Below are positions 65 through 39,739 of a DNA stretch of 48,754 nucleotides, one piece after another (position 1 is the first letter of the stretch; the number at the start of each line of letters is the position of its first letter). The notes below the pieces were generated by a model. It made no database searches, was not told where the DNA came from, and was given only the letters and a program-made list of their open reading frames with translations. The DNA lies in the NCBI GenBank assembly GCA_017478855.1, contig JAFVCX010000037.1, positions 1 through 48,754 on the forward strand. The letters run 5' to 3'. Source of the DNA: Muribaculaceae bacterium (GTDB lineage: Bacteria; Bacteroidota; Bacteroidia; Bacteroidales; Muribaculaceae). A program made the translations under genes and the position numbers.

Positions 65-622
65 ATGAAAAAATCTTATGTATTTTTGGCAAAGGGCTTT
101 GAGGAAATCGAGGCTCTGACCGTGGTTGACGTGATGCGCCGCGCGGGGATGCCCGTGGAGATGATTGGGCCGCTGGTGCGCGACTGCGTGCGCGGTGCGC
201 ATGGCGTGGAGGTAATGGCCGATGACCATGTTTCGAATGTGGACCTTGACGATGCCGAGTGGCTGATATGCCCGGGCGGCATGCCGGGAGCCACCAATTT
301 GGCCGACAGCTTTGTGCTGACCGACATGCTGGTGGAGCACGCCGGGCGAGGCGGGCTGGTGGCAGCCATCTGCGCGTCGCCGGCAGTGGTTCTGGCCCCG
401 ATTGGGGTGCTGAACGGGCGCAAGGCCGTGTGCTATCCGGGCATGGAGGTGGACGGCTATGGCGTGCAGTGGCAGCCCCATGAGAGCGTGGTGACGGACG
501 GTAACATCGTGACTGGACGGGGTCCGGCAAGCGCAGCCGAGTTTACGCTGGCCCTCGTGCGCAAGTCGCTGGGCGAAGCCGCCGCAGCCGAGGTGGCCGC
601 CGGCATGCTGCTGAACATGTGA
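65..622 (+). CDS. DJ-1/PfpI family protein (DJ-1/YajL-like)
   Basis: This is a 185-residue, single-domain cytoplasmic protein of the DJ-1/ThiJ/PfpI superfamily. It has the family's nucleophile elbow, with Cys103 in AAICASPAVVL, and the N-terminal acidic residue that contacts that cysteine (Glu16 in GFEEIEALT). Known members act as glyoxalase III/deglycase-like or oxidative-stress proteins; the exact reaction cannot be read from the sequence. The length matches bacterial DJ-1 proteins. I chose the ATG at 65 because the frame upstream (from base 2) encodes residues unlike any DJ-1 N-terminus, while MKKSYVFLAKGF is the typical first strand. It is followed 92 bp later by fabG on the same strand. 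Confidence 0.9.
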   Translation: MKKSYVFLAKGFEEIEALTVVDVMRRAGMPVEMIGPLVRDCVRGAHGVEVMADDHVSNVDLDDAEWLICPGGMPGATNLADSFVLTDMLVEHAGRGGLVAAICASPAVVLAPIGVLNGRKAVCYPGMEVDGYGVQWQPHESVVTDGNIVTGRGPASAAEFTLALVRKSLGEAAAAEVAAGMLLNM

Positions 623-714
623 GGACGCAAATAATTTTCACCGTGGGGCACGGGGCTGCCGTGGAGCCGCCCGCCGCCCGACAATAAACGAATTCTTAAA
701 AAAACCGATTAGAA

Positions 715-1461
715 ATGAAATTGCTTGAAGGAAAAGTAGCACTCATCACGGGTGCGGCCCGCGGCATTGGCAAGGCCATCGCGCTGAAGTTTGCCGCCGA
801 GGGTGCCGACATCGCATTCACCGACCTTGTGATTGACGAGAACGGCCAAGAAACAGAACGTGAAATCGCCGCATTGGGCGTGAAAGCCAAAGGATATGCC
901 AGCAATGCCGCCAACTTTGCCGAAACAGAGGAAGTGGTGGCCAAGGTCAAAGAGGACTTTGGGCACATCGACATTCTGGTGAACAACGCCGGCATCACCA
1001 AAGACGGCATCATGTTGCGCATGAGCGAGGCCCAGTGGGATGCCGTGATTGCCGTGAACCTGAAATCGGCCTTCAACTTCATCCACGCCCTGCTGCCCAT
1101 CATGATGCGTCAGCGCGGCGGCTCTATCATCAACATGGCCAGCGTGGTGGGCGTGCACGGCAATGCAGGCCAAGCCAACTACGCAGCCTCGAAGGCCGGC
1201 CTGATTGCGCTGGCCAAGAGTGTGGCGCAGGAGATGGGCAGCCGCGGCATCCGCGCCAACGCCATCGCTCCGGGCTTTATCGACACTGCCATGACGCAGG
1301 CGTTGCCCGAAGAGGTGCGCAAGGAGTGGGCCAAGAAGATTCCGCTGCGCCGTGGCGGCACGGTGGACGACATTGCTAACGTGGCAACGTTCCTCGCAAG
1401 CGACATGTCGGCCTATGTGACCGGCCAAGTGATTCAAGTGGACGGCGGCATGAACATGTGA
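715..1461 (+). CDS. fabG: 3-oxoacyl-[acyl-carrier-protein] reductase FabG
   Basis: This is a 248-residue classical short-chain dehydrogenase. It would carry out the NADPH-dependent reduction of 3-oxoacyl-ACP in the type II fatty acid cycle. Visible motifs are the Rossmann glycine motif TGAARGIG (residues 12-19), NNAG (90-93), and the catalytic set Asn115, Ser143, Tyr156 (YAASK) and Lys160. The C-terminal VTGQVIQVDGGMNM is characteristic of FabG. The length is exactly that of the family. A strong hairpin terminator follows 24 bp after the stop. Other SDR reductases share the motifs, but the whole-length resemblance to FabG is strong. Confidence 0.9.
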   Translation: MKLLEGKVALITGAARGIGKAIALKFAAEGADIAFTDLVIDENGQETEREIAALGVKAKGYASNAANFAETEEVVAKVKEDFGHIDILVNNAGITKDGIMLRMSEAQWDAVIAVNLKSAFNFIHALLPIMMRQRGGSIINMASVVGVHGNAGQANYAASKAGLIALAKSVAQEMGSRGIRANAIAPGFIDTAMTQALPEEVRKEWAKKIPLRRGGTVDDIANVATFLASDMSAYVTGQVIQVDGGMNM

Positions 1462-1484
1462 CGGGCGGCCGACCGCAAAATACG

Positions 1485-1532
1485 GCGGGGGCGCATCTGC
1501 GAGCTTGATGCTCAGATGCGTCCCCGCTTTTT
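1485..1532 (+). terminator. Rho-independent terminator after fabG
   Basis: A 15-bp stem (1485-1499 with 1513-1527, one G-T wobble) closes a 13-nt loop and is followed by a run of T. It lies between fabG and the convergent small membrane protein gene. Confidence 0.85.
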
Positions 1533-1560
1533 GTGTTTTCGCTAACGATGAGGGGTGCGG

Positions 1561-1767
1561 TCAGTCGCACCACGAAATGGCGAGGCAGACTATGGCGAAG
1601 GCCAAGATGCACAGCACTACCACGAGGTGCACCTTGCGGCTGGTGGCGTTGCCCTCCACGTCGCCTTCGGGATGATGGTGGGCGCTGCGGCTGTGCGACA
1701 CCACAGCCATCGCAAGCATGGCAGCCACCACCATGCCAATGAGGATCCAGAGCAAGTGAGTAGTCAT
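1561..1767 (-). CDS. Small two-helix membrane protein, unknown function
   Basis: This is a 68-residue protein with two hydrophobic segments (about residues 5-24 and 47-65) joined by a His-rich polar loop (HSRSAHHHPEGD). It is probably an inner-membrane protein. It starts 28 bp downstream of the DUF695 gene on the same strand, so the two probably form an operon. I do not recognise a family. A real gene is supported by the clean helix-loop-helix pattern and the operon position, but the size leaves doubt. Confidence 0.55.
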   Translation of the reverse strand: MTTHLLWILIGMVVAAMLAMAVVSHSRSAHHHPEGDVEGNATSRKVHLVVVLCILAFAIVCLAISWCD

Positions 1768-1795
1768 GACATTTCTGTTTTTATGCGTTTGTCGG

Positions 1796-2242
1796 TTATT
1801 CGCCCTCGGTCACCTCGCACTGGCACATCTCGTCATATTCGGCCCATTGGGGATCTTCCTCGGCATAGAACGAGAGGGGCAGCAGCTCAAAGGGGCTGAG
1901 GATGGCGTTGAGTTTCTTTTGAAAAATGTGGAGGCTGCGCGTGTAGAAGACGTAGTTGCGCTCGCCGTCGCCGGTGTAGATGCCCGTGAGAATAGCCACG
2001 GGGTCGCGCGAGAAGTCGGCCTTGAAGGCCTCGGTGACTTGCTCCATGAGGCGGCTGGTGTGCAGCTGTGGCAGGCCGGCGGCATCGGGCTCGTAGGGCC
2101 ACGTGACCTCGATGCGATACACATAGAAGCCCAAGTCGCGTGCCGGCTGCAAACCGCGGCGGCCGGTGACCATAATCAGGCGGTGGTTAGAACTTTCGGT
2201 GGGAGCTGTCCACCAGTCGTCGGTGAGTTTCAATTTGGCCAT
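1796..2242 (-). CDS. DUF695 domain-containing protein
   Basis: This is a 148-residue soluble protein with no signal peptide. The central and C-terminal part resembles the DUF695 family, including the pattern YVFYTRSLHIFQKKLN followed by an acidic tail with DPQWAEYDEM. No biochemical function is established that I know of. It is the first gene of a probable two-gene unit with the small membrane protein downstream. A near-consensus -7 box (TAACTTAG, 2270-2277 on this strand) lies just upstream, back to back with the promoter of the next rightward gene. Confidence 0.7.
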   Translation of the reverse strand: MAKLKLTDDWWTAPTESSNHRLIMVTGRRGLQPARDLGFYVYRIEVTWPYEPDAAGLPQLHTSRLMEQVTEAFKADFSRDPVAILTGIYTGDGERNYVFYTRSLHIFQKKLNAILSPFELLPLSFYAEEDPQWAEYDEMCQCEVTEGE

Positions 2243-2337
2243 AACGAGTGTGGTTATTGAATTTGCCCTCTAAGTTAGCGAGAAATGTTCACATGCGCAC
2301 CCTAACGGGCCCAGAAAGTGCATTTTTGACGCAAAAT

Positions 2338-2368
2338 TTTGCCAATAAGGGATTTTTGCCTACTTTTG
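2338..2368 (+). promoter_or_regulatory. Bacteroidota housekeeping promoter (TTTG-N19-TACTTTTG)
   Basis: TTTG at 2338-2341 and TACTTTTG at 2361-2368 are separated by exactly 19 bp, which matches the Bacteroidota -33/-7 consensus. Transcription would start near 2375, about 140 nt before the next start codon. Confidence 0.75.
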
Positions 2369-2374
2369 CAGTCA

Positions 2375-2513
2375 CATTTTTGCGCGACCCGCGATGGGTG
2401 GACGCAAAAACGCGAAGCAAAGCACCCCACCGTGACGGTGCTTTGAGCCGAAAATCGGCAAGATCCTTGCCTCTATGAGCAGGGTTCTGAGTACGAACCA
2501 AAAATTGAATTGA
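2375..2513 (+). promoter_or_regulatory. Structured 5' leader, candidate cis-regulatory RNA
   Basis: This is the stretch between the predicted transcription start and the thioredoxin-like gene. It holds a series of hairpins: TTTTTGCG/CGCAAAAA (2377-2384 with 2403-2410, enclosing ACCC/GGGT), a perfect 9-bp stem CAAAGCACC/GGTGCTTTG (2418-2426 with 2437-2445), CCGA/TCGG (2448-2451 with 2455-2458), and an imperfect stem 2462-2470 with 2479-2487. The last stem overlaps a competing stem GGTTC/GAACC (2483-2487 with 2495-2499), so two folds exclude each other. It matches no riboswitch class that I can name. It could instead be an independent small RNA. Confidence 0.5.
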
Positions 2514-2987
2514 ATGACTAAATCACAAATCACGCTTGTGACGTTGGCGATTTTGCTCCTATTCACCTCGGCCTACTACAACACACCCGCCGATGGGCGT
2601 GTGGGTTATCAAGCACCGGAATTGCTGCTGGGCAACGAGGACGACGACATTCATTTGAACGCATGGCGCGGGCAGTATGTGCTGGTGACGTTTTGGGCAT
2701 CGGCGCAGCCGGAGTCGCGCATTGCCAATATGCGCTATGACCGCGCAGCCAGCCAGCTGGCGGTGAAGCACTTGTCGGTCAATCTGGATGAGAGTGAGCG
2801 TTTGTGGAAGCAACTTGTGGCCGTGGATGGCCTTGCTTCCGGCGGGCAACGTCACTGCGAACTGAGCCACCACAGCGCGCTGAGGCGCGTTTGGCGGCAA
2901 AACGGCACTTTTTGCAGTTTTCTGATTGCCCCCGACGGCAAAATCGTGAGCAAGAACCCGTCGCTGCGCGACCTGCGGCAACTCTAA
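2514..2987 (+). CDS. Thioredoxin-like fold protein lacking the CxxC motif
   Basis: This is a 157-residue protein with an N-terminal hydrophobic segment (residues 6-20, a signal anchor or signal peptide) and then a TlpA/thioredoxin-like domain. The strand-turn region VLVTFWASAQPESR aligns with the usual VLVNFWASWCxPCR, but both active cysteines are replaced (Gln65-Pro66-Glu67-Ser68). Strand and loop features such as IAPDGKIVSKNPS near the C-terminus still fit the fold. It is probably periplasmic or membrane-anchored. The loss of the redox pair suggests a binding or structural role and not oxidoreduction. It sits alone behind the structured leader and in front of a strong terminator. Confidence 0.7.
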   Translation: MTKSQITLVTLAILLLFTSAYYNTPADGRVGYQAPELLLGNEDDDIHLNAWRGQYVLVTFWASAQPESRIANMRYDRAASQLAVKHLSVNLDESERLWKQLVAVDGLASGGQRHCELSHHSALRRVWRQNGTFCSFLIAPDGKIVSKNPSLRDLRQL

Positions 2988-3014
2988 GCGGCCTCACGAG
3001 GCCTAAACGCAAAG

Positions 3015-3052
3015 CGGGGATGCCAACTCACATGCTGGGCATCCCCGTTTTT
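3015..3052 (+). terminator. Rho-independent terminator
   Basis: A perfect 10-bp stem CGGGGATGCC/GGCATCCCCG (3015-3024 with 3038-3047) is followed by TTTTTA. It ends the thioredoxin-like gene. Confidence 0.85.
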
Positions 3053-3176
3053 ATTCGGAACTTTAGCACCTTGGAAATTTGTATTGGCAATCCAACAAAT
3101 GTCCAATGACGTAATTCTGTGAATCAAGTCTTCGCACGTTGTCTATGACAGCGTGTGTCAGCAACTTGCATCATCG

Positions 3177-3251
3177 TCGGGGTACCTGGATTCGAACCAG
3201 GGACTTCCTGCTCCCAAAGCAGGCGCGCTAACCGGACTGCGCTACACCCCG
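3177..3251 (-). tRNA. tRNA-Pro(TGG)
   Basis: On the minus strand there is a full cloverleaf. The acceptor stem CGGGGTG pairs with TACCCCG, the anticodon stem is CCTGC/GCAGG with loop TTTGGGA (anticodon TGG, proline), and the T arm contains GGTTCGAATCC. The discriminator is A and no CCA is encoded. It lies between the thioredoxin-like gene and aspS and is transcribed away from aspS. Confidence 0.95.
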
Positions 3252-3370
3252 AATGCTTTCCTTTTGCAAAAAGCGGTGCAAAGGTAAGCGATTTTTTTGA
3301 GTTGCCAATCTTTTATTTCAAAAAAATGATTTTTTTGGCGTTTTTGGGCGCGATTACGACGAAAATGTGC

Positions 3371-3378
3371 TAACTTTG
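3371..3378 (+). promoter_or_regulatory. -7 promoter element of aspS
   Basis: TAACTTTG, a consensus Bacteroidota -7 box, lies 43 bp upstream of the aspS ATG. No TTTG sits at the ideal 19-20 bp distance, although T-rich sequence lies a little further upstream. Confidence 0.6.
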
Positions 3379-3421
3379 CACGTTTTAACGAGTTCAAACC
3401 TAAAAATCGACATACAAAGCA

Positions 3422-5179
3422 ATGTATAGAACCAAGACATGTGGAGAGCTTCGGCTGGCTCAGGCCGGCGAGCAGGTGACTTTGGCCGGATGGGTGCAGC
3501 GCACTCGCAAGATGGGCGGCATGACCTTTGTGGACTTGCGCGACCGCTATGGTATTACGCAGATTGTGTTTAACAACGAAGTGGACGCGCCGCTGTGCGA
3601 GGCGGCCAACCGCTTGGGGCGCGAATATGTGGTGCAAGTCACCGGCACGGTGGCCGAGCGTTCAAGCAAAAATCCCAATATGCCCACGGGCGACATCGAA
3701 ATCATCGCCAGCCGGCTTACGGTGCTAAGTACCAGCGCGACCCCGCCATTCACCATCGAGGACAATACCGATGGCGGCGATGACCTGCGCATGAAATATC
3801 GATATCTGGACCTGCGCCGCAATGCCGTGCGCCGCAACTTGGAGCTGCGCCACCGCATGACGATTTTGATTCGCAATTTCCTTGACTCCCGCGACTTCAT
3901 CGAGGTGGAAACTCCTATTCTGATTGGGTCCACACCCGAGGGCGCACGCGACTTCGTGGTACCCTCACGCATGAATCCGGGTCAATTTTATGCCTTGCCG
4001 CAAAGCCCGCAAACGCTCAAGCAGTTGCTCATGGTGGCCGGTTTTGACCGCTACTTCCAAATTGCCAAGTGTTTCCGCGACGAGGACTTGCGAGCCGACC
4101 GCCAGCCCGAATTCACGCAGATTGACTGCGAAATGAGTTATGTGCATCAAGAAGACGTGCTGGAGATTTTTGAAGACATGGCACGCCACCTCTTCAAAGA
4201 GGTGCGCGGCGTGGAGCTGCCGGCCAAACTCACCCAAATGACTTGGCACGAGGCCATGCGCCTCTATGGCAGCGACAAGCCTGACCTGCGCTTCGGGATG
4301 GAGTTTGTGGAGCTCATCGACGTGCTCCGTGGCACCGGCACTTTCACCGTGTTTGACACGGCCGAATATATAGGAGGCATCTGCGCCAAAGGCTGTGCCA
4401 GCTACACACGCAAGCAGATTGATGCCCTCACCGACTTTGTGAAACGCCCGCAGGTGGGAGCCAAAGGACTCGTCTATGCCCGCGTGCAGGAGGACGGCAA
4501 CGTGAAGTCGAGCATTGATAAGTTCTACACACAGGAAGTGTTGCAGAACGTGAAGAAAGTCATGGGTGCCGAGCCCGGCGACCTGATGCTGATTCTATCG
4601 GGCGACAACGCGATGAAAACCCGCAAGCAGCTGTGTGAGCTGCGCCTCGAAATGGGCGAGCAACTGGGCTTGCGCGACAAAAACCGCTTTAAATGCCTGT
4701 GGATTGTGGACTTCCCACTCTTTGAGTGGAGCGACGAGGAACAACGCCTCATGGCTACTCACCACCCCTTCACGATGCCCAACCCCGACGACATTCCCCT
4801 GCTCGACGAGCATCCTGAGCGCGTGCGTGCTATGGCCTATGATTTCGTGTGCAACGGCTTCGAAGTGGGCGGCGGCAGCCTGCGTATCCACGATGGCGAG
4901 TTGCAGGCCAAAATGTTTGAGATTCTGGGCTTCACCCCCGAGAAAGCCATGGCGCAATTCGGCTTCCTGATCAACGCCTTCAAATATGGGGCGCCTCCTC
5001 ACGCCGGCCTCGCCGTTGGCCTCGACCGTTTTGTGAGCATCATGGCCGGGCTTGACAGCATTCGCGACTGCATCGCCTTCCCCAAGAACAACAGTGGCCG
5101 CGACGTGATGCTGGAGGCTCCCAGCGAGATTGCGCAAGAGCAACTCGATGAGCTGAACCTCATTTTGAAGAAAAACTAA
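3422..5179 (+). CDS. aspS: Aspartate--tRNA ligase
   Basis: This is a 585-residue class II aminoacyl-tRNA synthetase that charges tRNA with aspartate in the cytoplasm. It has an N-terminal OB-fold anticodon-binding domain (about 1-110). The catalytic core follows, with motif 1 around [20 protein letters not shown], motif 2 around [19 protein letters not shown], a bacterial GAD-type insertion, and motif 3 near the C-terminus ([13 protein letters not shown]). The length is typical of the bacterial-type enzyme. Whether it is discriminating or also charges tRNA-Asn cannot be decided here. It has its own -7 promoter box and is followed 27 bp later by the Nif3-like gene, so the downstream genes may be co-transcribed. 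Confidence 0.97.
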
Positions 5180-16318: not shown

Positions 16319-18106
16319 ATGAGCGAAGAATTAAAAAATTCTCCAATCGTCGACTTTGATTGGGATGCCTATGAAAAAGGCGAGACTCAAAGAGACAAAT
16401 CTTACGAAGAATTGGAAAAAACCTACGACAAATCCTTGGGTTCTTTCAAAGACAAGGACGTGACCGAAGGTACCGTCATCTCCATCAACAAGCGCGAGGT
16501 GGTGGTTAACATCGGTGCGAAGTCGGACGGCATCATTCCCTTTAACGAATTCCGTTACAACCCCGACCTCAAGGTGGGCGACACTGTGGAAGTGTTTGTT
16601 GAAAACCAAGAGGACAAAAAGGGTCAACTCATCCTGTCGCACCGCAAGGCACGCGCAGCCAAGAGTTGGGATCGCGTTAATGAGGCGCTTGAGAACGATG
16701 AGATCATCAAAGGTTTCATCAAATGCCGCACCAAAGGTGGCATGATCGTTGACGTGTTTGGCATCGAGGCATTCTTGCCCGGCAGCCAAATCGATGTGCG
16801 CCCCATTCGCGACTACGATGTGTTTGTGGGCAAGACCATGGAGTTCAAGGTGGTGAAAATCAACCAAGAGTTCCGCAACGTGGTTGTTTCGCACAAGGCA
16901 CTTATCGAGGCCGAACTCGAACAACAGAAGAAAGAAATCATTGCCAAGCTTGAGAAGGGTCAGGTGCTCGAAGGCACTGTGAAGAACATCACCAGCTACG
17001 GTGTGTTTATTGACCTCGGCGGCGTGGACGGCCTGATTCACATCACCGACCTCTCTTGGGGCCGCGTGAGCAATCCCGCCGACATAGTTGAGCCGGACCA
17101 GAAGCTCAATGTGGTGATTCTCGACTTTGACAACGAGAAGAAGCGCATTGCCCTCGGCTTGAAGCAACTGCAACCGCATCCTTGGGACAAGCTCGATCCC
17201 GATTTGAAGGTGGGCGACAAGGTTACGGGCCGCGTGGTTGTGATGTACGACTACGGCGCATTTGTTGAGATTGCTCCGGGCGTTGAAGGTCTGATTCATG
17301 TGAGCGAAATGTCGTGGTCGCAGCACCTGCGCTCGGCACAAGACTTCATGAAGGTGGGCGACACCGTGGAAGCTCAAATCTTGGCACTCGACCGCGAAGA
17401 GCGCAAGATGTCGCTTGGCATCAAGCAGCTCAAAGAGGATCCGTGGGAGAACATCGAGGTGAAATATCCCGTTGGCTCGCAGCACACCGCCAAGGTTCGC
17501 AACTTCACCAACTTCGGTGTGTTTGTGGAACTCGAAGAGGGCGTGGATGGCCTGATTCACATCAGCGACCTGTCGTGGACCAAGAAGGTGAAACATCCCA
17601 GCGAGTTCACCCAGATTGGCGCAAGCATCGACGTGAAAGTGCTTGAAATCGACAAAGAGAACCGTCGCCTCAGCCTCGGCCACAAGCAGCTTGAGCAAAA
17701 TCCGTGGGACGTGTTTGAAACCATCTACACTACCGGCAGCGTGCACGAAGGTGTGATCACCGAAATGCTCGACAAGGGTGCTGTGATCAACCTGCAGCCC
17801 TACGGAGTGGAAGGTTTTGCAACTCCCAAGCACCTCATCAAAGAGGACGGCAGCCAAGCACAGAAGGACGAGAAGCTCCCCTTCAAGGTGATTGAATTTA
17901 ACAAGGACGCAAAACGCATTATCCTTTCGCACAGCCGCATCTTCGAAGATGAGCAGAAGGGTGAGGCTCGCCGCGCTCGCAAGGCTCAGGGCAGCAACAA
18001 GCCCCAAGCCGAAGAGGCCGCTCCCGCAACCACGGTCGAAAAGACCACGCTGGGCGACATCAGCGCACTCGCTGCCCTTAAGGAGCAAATGGAAAAAGGC
18101 GAATAA
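16319..18106 (+). CDS. rpsA: 30S ribosomal protein S1
   Basis: This is a 595-residue S1 protein with six consecutive S1 RNA-binding OB-folds. It mediates mRNA binding at the ribosome in the cytoplasm. The repeats show the pattern G-x-V-x(n)-YGVFI/GAFV-(D/E)-(L/I)-(G)-x-VxGLIHI. The first two repeats (ribosome-binding) are more divergent, and the C-terminus is a charged, Ala-rich tail. Bacteroidota mRNAs usually lack Shine-Dalgarno sequences, so S1 is a central initiation factor here. Codon use is the most biased of the window, as expected for a highly expressed gene. It has its own promoter and a strong terminator. Confidence 0.97.
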   Translation: MSEELKNSPIVDFDWDAYEKGETQRDKSYEELEKTYDKSLGSFKDKDVTEGTVISINKREVVVNIGAKSDGIIPFNEFRYNPDLKVGDTVEVFVENQEDKKGQLILSHRKARAAKSWDRVNEALENDEIIKGFIKCRTKGGMIVDVFGIEAFLPGSQIDVRPIRDYDVFVGKTMEFKVVKINQEFRNVVVSHKALIEAELEQQKKEIIAKLEKGQVLEGTVKNITSYGVFIDLGGVDGLIHITDLSWGRVSNPADIVEPDQKLNVVILDFDNEKKRIALGLKQLQPHPWDKLDPDLKVGDKVTGRVVVMYDYGAFVEIAPGVEGLIHVSEMSWSQHLRSAQDFMKVGDTVEAQILALDREERKMSLGIKQLKEDPWENIEVKYPVGSQHTAKVRNFTNFGVFVELEEGVDGLIHISDLSWTKKVKHPSEFTQIGASIDVKVLEIDKENRRLSLGHKQLEQNPWDVFETIYTTGSVHEGVITEMLDKGAVINLQPYGVEGFATPKHLIKEDGSQAQKDEKLPFKVIEFNKDAKRIILSHSRIFEDEQKGEARRARKAQGSNKPQAEEAAPATTVEKTTLGDISALAALKEQMEKGE

Positions 18107-18131
18107 TCTCAGCCTGATTTCCAATAACGTC

Positions 18132-18172
18132 AAGGCGACATTCCACACACAAGTGGCAATGTCGCCTTTTTT
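18132..18172 (+). terminator. Rho-independent terminator of rpsA
   Basis: AAGGCGACATT pairs with AATGTCGCCTT, extended by CCAC/GTGG across one bulge, and is followed by a T-run. Confidence 0.9.
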
Positions 18173-35600: not shown

Positions 35601-35629
35601 ATGCAGCAAATAGGTGATGTCGGTTGTCA
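35601..35629 (+). promoter_or_regulatory. Shared motif ATGCAGCAAA-N13-TTGTCA, copy 1
   Basis: ATGCAGCAAA (35601-35610), 13 bp, TTGTCA (35624-35629), directly before the ECF-sigma/barrel gene. The same two blocks with the same spacing precede the next two genes. I propose an ECF-type -35/-10 promoter for autoregulation. Confidence 0.65.
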
Positions 35630-35637
35630 ATAATATA

Positions 35638-37329
35638 ATGGGTACGGGCCAAGAAATCAATATAGCCGCTATCGTTGAGCAATGCCGGCAAGGTGACATG
35701 GATGCCTTGCGTGTTCTGTATGTTAGCTATTACACTAACCTGCTGAATGTTGCGCGGCGTTATGTTGACGACGACACTGCCCATGATGTGGTGCACGACG
35801 CGATATTGATGGCCTTCACCTCATTAAACACGCTGCACGACGATAGCAAAATCGAGGCTTGGCTATCGCGCATCGTGCGAAACATGGCGTTGAATCACAT
35901 CAAACACGAGCGGATCATTCAGGCACAGCCTATCGAAACCATCAGAGATATTCCCGACGAAGTGCCCGATGAGCCGCTTGTTCCGTTCGATGTGCTCATG
36001 AGCATGGTCAAGCGATTGCCGAATGGTTATGAACAAGTCTTTCGCCTGCGCACGCTTGCCGGGCTGAGTCACGATGAGATTAGCCAACGTTTGGGCATCA
36101 CCAGTAGCACCAGCCGGTCGCAATTCACCCATGCCCGCCGCATGCTCAAGGCGATGGTGCAGCACTGGTGGATAGCCGTGGTGACACTTGTGGCAACCAC
36201 CGTGTTGCTGGTTGAACTTAACCGTCATGACGGCGCACCGGGCAGGCAAACGCCGGCTGACACCAAGACCGCGCAAGAGCCGCCGAAAGCAATGCCGCAT
36301 ATCGACAGTCTTAACGCCAATGACCAGCAACGTCATCAGCGTCATTTGGCCGAAACAGCCCCCGCCTCTCATTTCGGAGATACAGCATCCTGCTACAAGC
36401 AACCGGTAGATACGGTGGTTGTTCCTGCCCTAAGTCAACCCTCCGACACCACCGGGCAACCATCTCGGCCGGCGGGAGCGTTGCCATATCCACTCAATCC
36501 TGCATTGCCGCTTGCCCAAGATGACAGTAGGCCGCATGAGTATAGAGGACTTCAACGTCCGAGTAGCTCCGGCATGTCGCTGAATATGGCGTTCAGTGGA
36601 CTGCCTGAGCGTTTCGACCGCGCACAAGCTGCGACCATCACAGGCATATCCTCTACTGCTGCGACAGGAGATAAAACGGATGTGGTTCCCATTGATTTCA
36701 ATAATTGGACTGATTATTTCAACTTTATCAATGAAGAAGCGGAAATAAAGCCCACCGACGAGAATTTGTCGCTGCGCCGCATTGCCGAAAGCAACGCCTT
36801 GGGCAATCCTAACCAAGAAATTGAGGAGCGTGTTAAGCACGACGTTCCCATCACGGTGAGTCTGTCGCTGAACAAAAACATTACTAACCGTCTGGCGTTG
36901 GGCAGCGGAATCAGTTATACCCGGCTGCATTCCACCTTCGATGTCGGCTACGAGCGAGCATTCATCAGCAACGAGCAAACGATACACTATGTTGGTATTC
37001 CCGTCAATGCGTCTTACACATTCTTGCGGAATAGCCGTTGGTCACTCTATGGCAGTGCCGGTCTTGCTCTTGACATCCCCGTCGCCAACACATGGCAGAC
37101 CGAACACGTCCTTAACGGCCAGTCCATTTTCTCAAAGTCAAGCAGTTTCACATTGCCCGTGCAATGGTCGGTGACAACCGGTGTGGGTTTGCAGTACAAC
37201 CTCACTCCACACATCGGTATCTTTGTTCAGCCAAGCGGCACCTACTATTTCGATAACGGCACGAAGACTATCCGCAGCGCCCATCCGTGGAGCGTGACCA
37301 TACCGACAGGACTGAGGTTCACTTGGTAA
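35638..37329 (+). CDS. ECF sigma factor fused to a transmembrane helix and outer-membrane beta-barrel
   Basis: This is a 563-residue uninterrupted polypeptide. Residues about 8-90 are sigma region 2 (DDDTAHDVVHDAILMAF, EAWLSRIVRNMALNHIK). Residues 117-172 are sigma region 4 (LPNGYEQVFRLRTLAGLSHDEISQRLGI...ARRMLKAMV). A membrane helix follows directly (176-194, WWIAVVTLVATTVLLVEL), then a Pro/Ser/Gln-rich linker (195 to about 385) and a small Tyr/Gly-rich beta-barrel (about 390-563) ending in IPTGLRFTW. Sigma factors and envelope-spanning partners are normally separate genes (dual membrane-spanning anti-sigma factors are known in Bacteroides); here both are one chain and no anti-sigma domain is seen. 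I prefer the ATG at 35638 because the earlier starts (35614, 35617) lie inside the promoter-like motif. Confidence 0.88.
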   Translation: MGTGQEINIAAIVEQCRQGDMDALRVLYVSYYTNLLNVARRYVDDDTAHDVVHDAILMAFTSLNTLHDDSKIEAWLSRIVRNMALNHIKHERIIQAQPIETIRDIPDEVPDEPLVPFDVLMSMVKRLPNGYEQVFRLRTLAGLSHDEISQRLGITSSTSRSQFTHARRMLKAMVQHWWIAVVTLVATTVLLVELNRHDGAPGRQTPADTKTAQEPPKAMPHIDSLNANDQQRHQRHLAETAPASHFGDTASCYKQPVDTVVVPALSQPSDTTGQPSRPAGALPYPLNPALPLAQDDSRPHEYRGLQRPSSSGMSLNMAFSGLPERFDRAQAATITGISSTAATGDKTDVVPIDFNNWTDYFNFINEEAEIKPTDENLSLRRIAESNALGNPNQEIEERVKHDVPITVSLSLNKNITNRLALGSGISYTRLHSTFDVGYERAFISNEQTIHYVGIPVNASYTFLRNSRWSLYGSAGLALDIPVANTWQTEHVLNGQSIFSKSSSFTLPVQWSVTTGVGLQYNLTPHIGIFVQPSGTYYFDNGTKTIRSAHPWSVTIPTGLRFTW

Positions 37330-37331
37330 TT

Positions 37332-37360
37332 ATGCAGCAAACTGGCTTTCTCTATTGTCA
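37332..37360 (+). promoter_or_regulatory. Shared motif ATGCAGCAAA-N13-TTGTCA, copy 2
   Basis: ATGCAGCAAA (37332-37341), 13 bp, TTGTCA (37355-37360), 2 bp after the sigma gene stop. A further AAGTTTGCA block (37373-37380) also matches copy 3. The region can fold into a hairpin (CTTTCTCTA with TAGAGAAAAG). Confidence 0.65.
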
Positions 37361-37379
37361 GTAGAGAAAAGAAGTTTGC

Positions 37380-38219
37380 ATGATGACAGATACCATTCAT
37401 TATTACCAATGCCCCTTGTGCGGATGTCATGCGTTGAAACAGCACGTTACCGCCACCGACCGGTTGGTCAGTGGGAAGCAATTCACAATAGTCAAGTGTG
37501 ACGGTTGCGGCCTCTTTCTCACGCAAGACGCACCGTCGGCCACTGCGATAGGGCAATATTATCAATCAGTAAAATACCTTCCGCATAATGGTCAGCGTAC
37601 TGCAATATCATTTCTATATCGCATTGCGCGCTCGCTGATGTTTCACCGAAAACTTTCGCTGATTCATCGTTACAGCAAGAGACAACATGGTGCATTGATT
37701 GATGTGGGTGCGGGCGACGGGCATTTCATGGCATTCATGCGTCGTCGCGGCTGGCAGGTGACCGGCTGCGAGCAAAGCGGTCATGCGCGCGCCGAAGCAG
37801 AGAAGAAATTTGGACTGCAAATTGATGGCGATGTAATGAGTTGTAATTACCCCTCAGAGAACGCAGATGTGATAACCGCTTGGCATGCGGTGGAGCATAT
37901 TCACGAACTGCATGCAGTGTGGGACCGTTTCAACTGTTGGCTCAAACCTGAGGGCACACTGTTTGTGGCAGTTCCCAACTGCGATAGTTGGGACGCGAAA
38001 TATTATGGCGGCAACTGGGCCGCGTGGGACGTTCCCCGGCATTTATGGCACTTTAATGAAAAGTCAATAACCGACTTGGCATCCCAACATGGATTTGTTA
38101 TGGTAGGTAGCCATCCATTGCCCATTGACGCTTGTTATATAGCGTTGCTTTCTGAACGCAACAAAATCAAAGCCATCATTAATAGCTTGCGTTTCATGTT
38201 GCTTGGCGCGCGCGACTAA
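37380..38219 (+). CDS. SAM-dependent methyltransferase with N-terminal zinc ribbon
   Basis: This is a 279-residue cytoplasmic class I methyltransferase. The N-terminus has two CxxC knuckles (CPLCGC, CDGCG) typical of the group of methyltransferases acting in polysaccharide or lipid modification. The SAM-binding motif I is LIDVGAGDGHFM and a later motif is ITAWHAVEHIHEL, followed by LKPEGTLFVAVPN. The C-terminus is shorter than I expect for the group, stopping at RFMLLGARD, so it may be slightly truncated. It follows the sigma-barrel gene by 50 bp and carries the shared promoter motif. The substrate is unknown. Confidence 0.88.
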   Translation: MMTDTIHYYQCPLCGCHALKQHVTATDRLVSGKQFTIVKCDGCGLFLTQDAPSATAIGQYYQSVKYLPHNGQRTAISFLYRIARSLMFHRKLSLIHRYSKRQHGALIDVGAGDGHFMAFMRRRGWQVTGCEQSGHARAEAEKKFGLQIDGDVMSCNYPSENADVITAWHAVEHIHELHAVWDRFNCWLKPEGTLFVAVPNCDSWDAKYYGGNWAAWDVPRHLWHFNEKSITDLASQHGFVMVGSHPLPIDACYIALLSERNKIKAIINSLRFMLLGARD

Positions 38220-38305: not shown

Positions 38306-38334
38306 ATGCAGCAAAACGACTTTCTCAGTTGTCA
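38306..38334 (+). promoter_or_regulatory. Shared motif ATGCAGCAAA-N13-TTGTCA, copy 3
   Basis: ATGCAGCAAA (38306-38315), 13 bp, TTGTCA (38329-38334). From 38299 to the start codon it aligns without gaps to the region before the methyltransferase gene, including TGGT, CTTTCTC and AAGTTTGCA. A local inverted repeat GTTGTCAA/TTGACAAC spans the TTGTCA block. Confidence 0.65.
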
Positions 38335-38356
38335 AAGTTGACAACAAGTTTGCAAT

Positions 38357-39739
38357 ATGAAATCTCTTTACACTCGTCATAGCATCTTTAAAATGACGGC
38401 ATTGAGCATTGTCGTCCTTTTCGCGTTTACGTTAACCGCCCAAACCGGCACGTTGCCAGTCATGCAGATTGAGACTCGTAACCGCCAACCAATAACGTCT
38501 AAAACCGTGTATATCCCTGGAACGTACTATCTTGTTGACAATCAGAATCCGGACTTCAACTTGGGTTCGGCAAAACAACCTTTGTCGCTTGAAATCCGTG
38601 GCAGGGGACATTCGTCATGGAAAGGAGTGAAGAAACCTTATAAAATCAGATTGACTGAGAAAGCGCCGTTACTGGGCATGAACAAACACAAGCATTGGGC
38701 CTTGCTCAAGTATTACGAACCCACCGTGGCCGGTATGCGCTTGGGTGAAATCATGGGCATGGACTGGACGCCGTCCACCCGCCCTGTGGAGGTGGTGCTC
38801 AACGGCGATTACCTCGGACTATATCTGCTCACCGAAACCAACCGCATCAGCCGTCAACGCCTCAACATCTATGAACAACCCAACTGGAACGAGGACGAAA
38901 GTACCATCCCCTACGGTTGGCTCGTGGAGGTCGACAACTATTACGAGCCCAACTCAATAAGCATCAAGGAAAACAACTCGTGGAACATGCGTTTCACCTA
39001 CCATTCGCCCGATTCGCTCTCTGCGGCGCAACGCAACTGGCTGATTAATGAGTTTCAACACATCAACACCGTCATCTATGATGAGGATAAGGTTAATAGC
39101 TCTTGGGAGCAACTGATTGATGTGGATGCCATGGCGCGTTACTTTATCATCCAAGAGGTGCTTGATAACAGCGACGGCTTTCACGGCAGTTTCTACCTGC
39201 ACAAAGACTTGAGCGATGACGCGCGATGGGTGGCAGGACCGCTTTGGGACTTGTCGTGCAACCAACGTGCCAAGACAGATTACACATTCCGAATGAAGAC
39301 ATCCTACGGCTTCACTCCGCACTGGATTGGCGAACTGATTAAAGACGGAGACTTCTGCCGAGCTGTTCGAAACGCATGGAACGATTTTTATCCCACCGAA
39401 ATCCAATCGTGGATGTCGTACATCGACGAGCGGCTGCTGCCGTGCCACGACGCGCTTGAGGCAGAAAAAATCCGATGGAGCTATACCAATCAAGAAACCC
39501 TTGAAGTGCGGGTGGGCAAGCTCAAATCGGCCCTGCTCGCAAATATTGAATGGTTTAACAACAACCTGCCCGATGCGGACACAAGCACAGAGGTGGTTAC
39601 TATTGACAAGAAGATTGTCAAGGTTGAGTACATCAATTTGGCCGGCATTCGTAGTGCTCAGCCGTGGAGCGGCGTGAACATCAAGGTGACGACTTACGAC
39701 GACGGCAGCACATCAACCACCAAAATATTATTCAAATAA
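38357..39739 (+). CDS. Exported CotH-family protein
   Basis: This is a 460-residue exported protein with an N-terminal signal peptide (to about LTAQ, residue 29). The CotH kinase-like domain includes RGRGHSSWKGVKKPYKIRL, LEIRG, GWLVEVDNYYE and GPLWDLSCNQ. The last motif is usually GPxWDFD in the family; here DLS replaces it. The C-terminal 50 residues (VKVEYINLAGIRSAQ to TTKILFK) look like the beta-type sorting or anchoring domain of exported Bacteroidota proteins. CotH proteins are atypical secreted or spore-coat protein kinases. It carries the same upstream motif as the sigma-barrel and methyltransferase genes. Part of its 3' end is duplicated at 43627-43753. Confidence 0.88.
   Translation: MKSLYTRHSIFKMTALSIVVLFAFTLTAQTGTLPVMQIETRNRQPITSKTVYIPGTYYLVDNQNPDFNLGSAKQPLSLEIRGRGHSSWKGVKKPYKIRLTEKAPLLGMNKHKHWALLKYYEPTVAGMRLGEIMGMDWTPSTRPVEVVLNGDYLGLYLLTETNRISRQRLNIYEQPNWNEDESTIPYGWLVEVDNYYEPNSISIKENNSWNMRFTYHSPDSLSAAQRNWLINEFQHINTVIYDEDKVNSSWEQLIDVDAMARYFIIQEVLDNSDGFHGSFYLHKDLSDDARWVAGPLWDLSCNQRAKTDYTFRMKTSYGFTPHWIGELIKDGDFCRAVRNAWNDFYPTEIQSWMSYIDERLLPCHDALEAEKIRWSYTNQETLEVRVGKLKSALLANIEWFNNNLPDADTSTEVVTIDKKIVKVEYINLAGIRSAQPWSGVNIKVTTYDDGSTSTTKILFK

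Follow-up and report, generated by a model that had tools for sequence, protein, structure and literature searches.

The window, by which we mean the whole stretch of 48,754 nucleotides analysed here, carries on its forward strand, at 35614-37329, one uninterrupted open frame comprising 571 codons from a GTG or 563 amino acids from the ATG at 35638. As the GTG lies inside a promoter-like sequence (site 1), the ATG at 35638 is the likelier start; residue numbers given below nevertheless refer to the 571-aa frame. The neighbours of this gene are an HxlR regulator, a methyltransferase and a CotH-kinase family protein, with no adjoining ECF sigma gene. The features of the locus are as follows:

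35602-35632 (+), promoter-like site 1 before the fused gene, TGCAGCAAA N14 TGTCAATA, 0 mismatches
35638-37329 (+), fused gene, 563 aa from the ATG: ECF sigma, membrane helix, tether, outer-membrane barrel
35671-36159 (+), sigma domain, regions 2 and 4, residues 20-182 (Pfam/NCBIfam, ECF sigmas in the PDB, profile limits)
36166-36219 (+), predicted membrane helix, residues 185-202, WWIAVVTLVATTVLLVEL (hydropathy scan)
36220-36831 (+), tether, residues 203-406, fast-evolving and presumably disordered (length, composition, dN/dS)
36832-37326 (+), C-terminal barrel domain, last residue an aromatic W (OMP_b-brl_2, OMP_b-brl)
37333-37363 (+), promoter-like site 2, directly past the stop of the fused gene and before the methyltransferase, 1 mismatch
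37347-37369 (+), inverted repeat with arms TTTCTCTA / TAGAGAAA spanning the -10 block of site 2
37380-38219 (+), methyltransferase (Methyltransf_23, Pfam), predicted regulon member
38307-38337 (+), promoter-like site 3 before the CotH gene, 2 mismatches
38357-39739 (+), CotH-kinase family protein (PF08757, Pfam), predicted regulon member

Pfam places Sigma70_r2 at residues 35-99 and Sigma70_r4_2 at residues 127-178, both above their gathering scores, with the alternative region-4 model Sigma70_r4 just under its cut-off (21.0 vs 24.1). On the same part of the protein, NCBIfam finds TIGR02937 above its cut-off and TIGR02985 at 86 bits, under its cut-off of 126.4. Searching the PDB by sequence with the fused protein gave 16 matches, all of them sigma factors (e.g., the ECF sigma 1or7), and no match for the barrel part. 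The barrel is recognised by two overlapping Pfam families above their gathering scores, OMP_b-brl_2 (residues 404-535) and OMP_b-brl (residues 413-547); past residue 184 these barrel families alone are above cut-off in Pfam and no family is in NCBIfam. The chain ends in GLRFTW. Residues 185-202 form the best hydrophobic stretch past the sigma part (mean Kyte-Doolittle 2.05) and, by hydropathy, the single predicted membrane helix of the protein, as in the dual membrane-spanning anti-sigma (Dma) factors. An earlier sequence-only reading had described sigma regions 2 and 4, a helix, a linker and a C-terminal barrel in one frame, which Pfam and hydropathy bear out, and had put the helix within about four residues of the sigma part, in agreement with the 2-3 residues that separate it from the end of the sigma match at residue 182. 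Its Pro/Ser-rich linker of about 190 residues holds as a long tether, here 204 residues, whose Pro/Ser richness turned out to be mild (P 10%, S+T 15%).

The gene is intact and its layout recurs. Looking for homologues with the same domain order, as that reading had proposed, we read 97 fused sigma-barrel frames, counting the window; they come from four families (f1, f59, f5 and f111) that belong to one order. These comprise 78 distinct fused ORFs including the window, five of which are truncated or mis-started, and all 19 of the 19 loci fetched from the further family f59. Among 60 relatives searched, ten gave full-length matches at 34-56% identity, and more were added by further draws, which took in 297 genomes from the family, 393 from the order and 151 from the second family (f59), the last with a near-full-length match in 32 genomes and a partial match in 5 (rows counted by hand). 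A draw of 395 genomes across the phylum yielded only three genomes with a match at E 1e-65, all within the window's order. One of the fused frames comes from a related MAG (L038, 56-58% identity). A stop near 36150-36200, which would have pointed to two genes joined in error, was not encountered in related genomes; the fused frame is open in many of them, and in the assemblies of a few relatives (G024, G021, G376 and G617) it looks broken. Some genomes hold more than one system: G036 has one fused and one two-gene system together (L015, L118) and G154 two fused genes (L040, L069), so that crosstalk is possible in both, and in G138 one fused gene (L070) is accompanied by another copy that runs off the end of its contig (L041).

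In many relatives the two halves are neighbouring genes, encoding a sigma factor of ~185 aa and a barrel protein of about 350-490 aa, in which a helix, a tether and the barrel follow a short cytoplasmic N-terminus; this is the published Dma layout as given in the accessible part of its description (PMC13088901). In agreement with the sequence-only reading, the fused sigma sits at the N-terminus, presumably on the cytoplasmic side, of a protein laid out like an envelope-spanning Dma factor. By eye, the N-termini of the two-gene barrel proteins share a conserved motif, W..K...M...E...P..LWD.IE, and a profile built from these N-termini, with the tested proteins held out, detected 48 of 49 two-gene proteins at a threshold of 1e-3. 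At the same threshold it matched none of the 78 whole fused chains including the window (best 0.52) and none of the 19 from f59 (best 0.6), which upholds the reported absence of an anti-sigma domain; a hidden or relocated copy in the fused chains was considered and rejected on this whole-chain search. The gap between sigma match and helix in the fused proteins has a median of 4 residues (range -2 to 8), and the median tether length is 187 residues in fused and 186 in two-gene proteins. With so small a gap and an unchanged tether, the sensing half appears to have been kept and the inhibitory part to be gone. The sole two-gene protein missed by the held-out profile (L162, 2700-4088) seems by eye to carry two tandem diverged anti-sigma-like segments at its N-terminus.

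Quick trees of both halves, from which the five truncated or mis-started ORFs were left out, point to a single origin. In the sigma tree one branch parts the 73 fused from the 49 two-gene rows with support 99, and after adding f59 it parts 92 fused from 49 two-gene rows with support 100, while the fused group has support 89 when other ECF sigmas are included as outgroup. The barrel tree likewise has one branch that parts fused from two-gene proteins (support 88, with long-branch warnings). Rooted by the outgroup, the fused and split sigmas are sister groups, so that the tree shows a single event without its direction; an impression that the split group was paraphyletic came from three lone sigmas lying within it and was ruled out. 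Fusion is simpler than fission, since the outgroup sigmas stand alone as proteins and a fission would also require the gain of an anti-sigma domain. The fused architecture would accordingly be read, most simply, as the product of one ancient fusion of a two-gene pair. Across 11 hand-chosen pairs of relatives, and where it could be computed, omega indicates purifying selection on both the sigma part (0.06-0.21) and the barrel (0.05-0.27); for the tether it was 0.14-0.59.

The site pattern of the window's clade is TGCAGCAAA-N14-TGTCWATA. In the 2.3-Mb genome, the sole sites with 0 and 1 mismatch precede the fused gene and the methyltransferase, and of three sites with 2 mismatches one precedes the CotH gene and two lie elsewhere. 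Allowing up to 3 mismatches gave 17 matches in the genome vs 11 for the reversed pattern (mismatch numbers not split), and within the window the three matches with at most 2 mismatches compare with 0.04 expected from window shuffles. The predicted -10 block of site 1 ends 5 bases before the ATG at 35638 (35625-35640), so the mRNA of the fused gene would be leaderless or nearly so. The inverted repeat at site 2 has arms that differ among 7 loci of the window's clade yet stay complementary, a pattern suggestive of an operator or of a hairpin in the RNA when transcription reads through. Over a wider set, inverted-repeat arms of at least 6 bp occur at 19 of 40 copies of the motif downstream and at 11 of 40 upstream, compared with 12% in shuffles; as a general feature of downstream copies they were dropped, being convincing in the window's clade only.

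A two-block motif stands upstream of fused genes, with ATGCAGTCTTTT, about 12-14 bases and then an A/T-rich -10 block that varies by clade (ATCTAT, GGACTATA or TGTCAATA). Leaving aside 15 of the 78 upstreams, which were short or had a 22-mer in common with another, TGCAG lay at -90 to -15 in 43 of the remaining 63 distinct upstreams vs 3.6 expected; within 220 bp it is absent from 18 of all 78. The family f59 took no part in motif discovery, and with a looser window TGCAG was found upstream in 17 of its 19 loci. The motif also recurs behind the fused genes: among the 56 loci with an upstream site of their own, 34 hold downstream copies on the same strand (37 copies, vs 4 on the opposite strand and 1.4 expected from shuffles), mostly within 25 bases past the stop of the fused gene, many of these loci being related and thus not 34 independent events. 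The other 22 loci gave no downstream copy in the 234 to 4997 downstream bases covered (median 1497), and in f59 a simpler test, run without shuffles, found a downstream copy in 13 of 19 loci. TGCAG is likewise enriched before two-gene systems (13 of 45 upstreams vs 2.9 expected), so the -35 block partly reflects shared ancestry, and no 7-8-letter word stood clearly above shuffles in those upstreams. Searching seven hand-chosen genomes with the consensus of other genera gave 9 sites in four of them, all at fused loci, with 0 control matches. No site of that consensus was found in G015, G034 and G187; the first two belong to the window's clade, whose site differs from the consensus searched, and the fused gene of G187 has no TGCAG upstream.

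With a site in front of the fused gene and of each of the next two genes (methyltransferase and CotH), and with the sites of other genomes at fused loci, the predicted regulon is the fused gene itself plus its neighbours. This suggests that the fused protein switches on its own gene and two neighbours, and on the same grounds the sigma part looks active. The neighbours were grouped by BLAST, with one or two members of each group scanned (one, by Pfam, for the NigD-like group). Counting the window, its methyltransferase group occurs in 5 and its CotH group in 14 of the 78 fused loci, a radical SAM/SPASM group in 19 and a second methyltransferase group in 8; a NigD-like group lies upstream in 21 of the 49 split loci and in 0 of the 78 fused loci. 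The CotH-kinase family protein of the window has, by eye, a signal-peptide-like N-terminus. In 4 loci (e.g., L093 3698-4783, L098 541-1032) the TIGR04133 radical SAM / TIGR04134 lipoprotein pair follows the fused gene, and the fused sigma may be the regulator of that system.

The domain anatomy, the missing anti-sigma domain and the conserved pairs of promoter-like sites can be read directly from the sequences, and we consider it probable that they describe a single-chain switch from envelope to promoter that was fused from a two-gene pair, has its sigma released by proteolysis and drives a self-amplifying local regulon. In such a switch, the helix shortly after region 4 would anchor the ECF sigma at the inner face of the cytoplasmic membrane, and the long tether would span the periplasm and end in a small outer-membrane barrel. 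The switch would have originated from an ECF sigma and a Dma-type anti-sigma that fused with loss of the ~50-residue anti-sigma domain, whereupon the membrane tether would have taken over keeping the sigma off RNA polymerase. A change sensed by the barrel or the tether would most likely trigger cleavage, first in the periplasm and next within or close to the membrane, that frees the sigma, as in IutY of P. putida. Control by tethering, and perhaps by such proteolysis, was also the suggestion of the sequence-only reading. The free sigma would recognise promoters of the TGCAG...TGTCAATA type in front of its own gene and of the one or more genes that follow, and the local regulon here, the methyltransferase and the CotH-type kinase, would be self-amplifying, as the sites in the sequence support. 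For the lineage as a whole, which covers at least four families, we lean slightly towards an ancient fusion that shed its anti-sigma domain, with tethering in its place, and a private promoter that drives the fused gene together with a swapped-in neighbour (radical SAM enzyme, CotH kinase or methyltransferase).

The main rival to proteolytic release is a sigma that works while anchored, a signal altering its position or exposure so that local promoters, that of its own gene among them, are transcribed at the membrane without any cut. ToxR and CadC are membrane-bound regulators and a model for this kind of anchored activation. An activator confined to the membrane could reach a regulon of self plus neighbour, the spacing between sigma and helix varies little, and no conserved motif marking a cleavage site was noticed. 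However, region 4 within a few residues of the membrane should hinder binding of both the -35 block and core polymerase, and IutY, the one fused ECF with characterised proteolytic activation, is freed by Prc and RseP according to the accessible part of the source (PMC8999054). We therefore regard activation in place as possible and rather improbable. Alternatively, the sigma could be inhibited by an anti-sigma domain that has diverged too far to be found, or by a separate anti-sigma acting in trans. That one of the 49 two-gene proteins escaped the profile at 1e-3 demonstrates that divergence can hide the domain, and other relatives such as G036 do hold fused and split systems together; yet the helix follows the sigma match so closely (the median of 4 residues, -2 to 8) that little room is left for a hidden domain, and in the window's genome, which is 92% complete, no second Dma-type barrel protein was seen. 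Such inhibition is unlikely.

Still less probable is an ordinary C-terminal extension, a passive anchor with sigma activity set by expression level only. The sensor function of the barrel is indeed assumed in our proposal, but the barrel is under purifying selection (the omega of 0.05-0.27 above) and homologous to the sensor half of Dma-type proteins, which makes us think a passive anchor very improbable. A sequencing or assembly error that joined two genes, which the occurrence of two-gene versions in relatives might bring to mind, has a practically negligible chance, as the 97 fused frames come from many genomes and fall to the same side of a single branch, and we have ruled it out.

The sigma-Dma architecture is already in print as Dma3 of B. 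thetaiotaomicron (BT_2778-2779 locus), for which the source states a sigma domain at the N-terminus and says that very little else is known (PMC13088901). The window gene belongs to that kind, and the novelty that the sequence-only reading implied was overstated; as far as the published description allows a comparison, both chains are of the Dma type and begin with a sigma domain, and neither has a separate adjacent sigma gene. In the part of that source accessible, deletion of dma3 left the changed profiles of B. thetaiotaomicron dma1 and dma2 mutants unreverted (PMC13088901), a point against the proposed switch. Tables of iron-responsive genes list BT2778 as a sigma-70 family factor (PMC10434189, accessible part). 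A literature search mostly outside subscription papers and preprints, and not aimed at the promoters of the family, brought up no account of the domain loss, of a single event, of the radiation or of self-plus-neighbour promoters. Dma1/Das1 and Dma2/Das2 are described, in the accessible text, as an ECF21 sigma and a dual membrane-spanning anti-sigma encoded by separate genes (PMC13088901). The fused chain shares their helix, tether and barrel layout, with a tether length matched in the two-gene relatives fetched here, and its sigma is the sister group of sigmas encoded beside Dma-type genes; it differs in that those systems have a separate sigma and an N-terminal anti-sigma domain, whereas the fused chain contains the sigma and the domain was not found. 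No two-gene sigma/Dma pair and no other Dma-type barrel protein was seen in the window's genome at its 92% completeness.

The closest worked-out precedent for the proposed proteolytic release is IutY (ECF243), whose sigma part is freed as set out above; its extension and those of the fused ECFs ECF48, 52, 53 and 36 are described as anti-sigma-like in the accessible part of the same source (PMC8999054). Like IutY and the other fused ECFs, so far as these are described there, the window protein joins a sigma and a membrane-bound regulator in one chain. Unlike IutY, the window chain itself carries a barrel and has no anti-sigma domain after its sigma part; the outer-membrane receptor of IutY is reportedly a separate protein.

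If true, the proposed switch would be about the shortest possible route from cell surface to promoter, with a single molecule reaching across both membranes and doubling as the transcription factor. It would also suggest how mere tethering can stand in for an inhibitor domain. The sigma part can be put to the test through the repeated promoter-like site and the two neighbouring genes, which the sequence-only reading does not mention, and since the regulon (own gene plus the next one or two) is predicted from the sequence, the signal sensed by Dma-type barrels and the way it is passed on become testable as well. Elsewhere in the window, two frames of 595 and 605 aa at 16319-18106 (+) and 16331-18148 (-) overlap almost completely on opposite strands.
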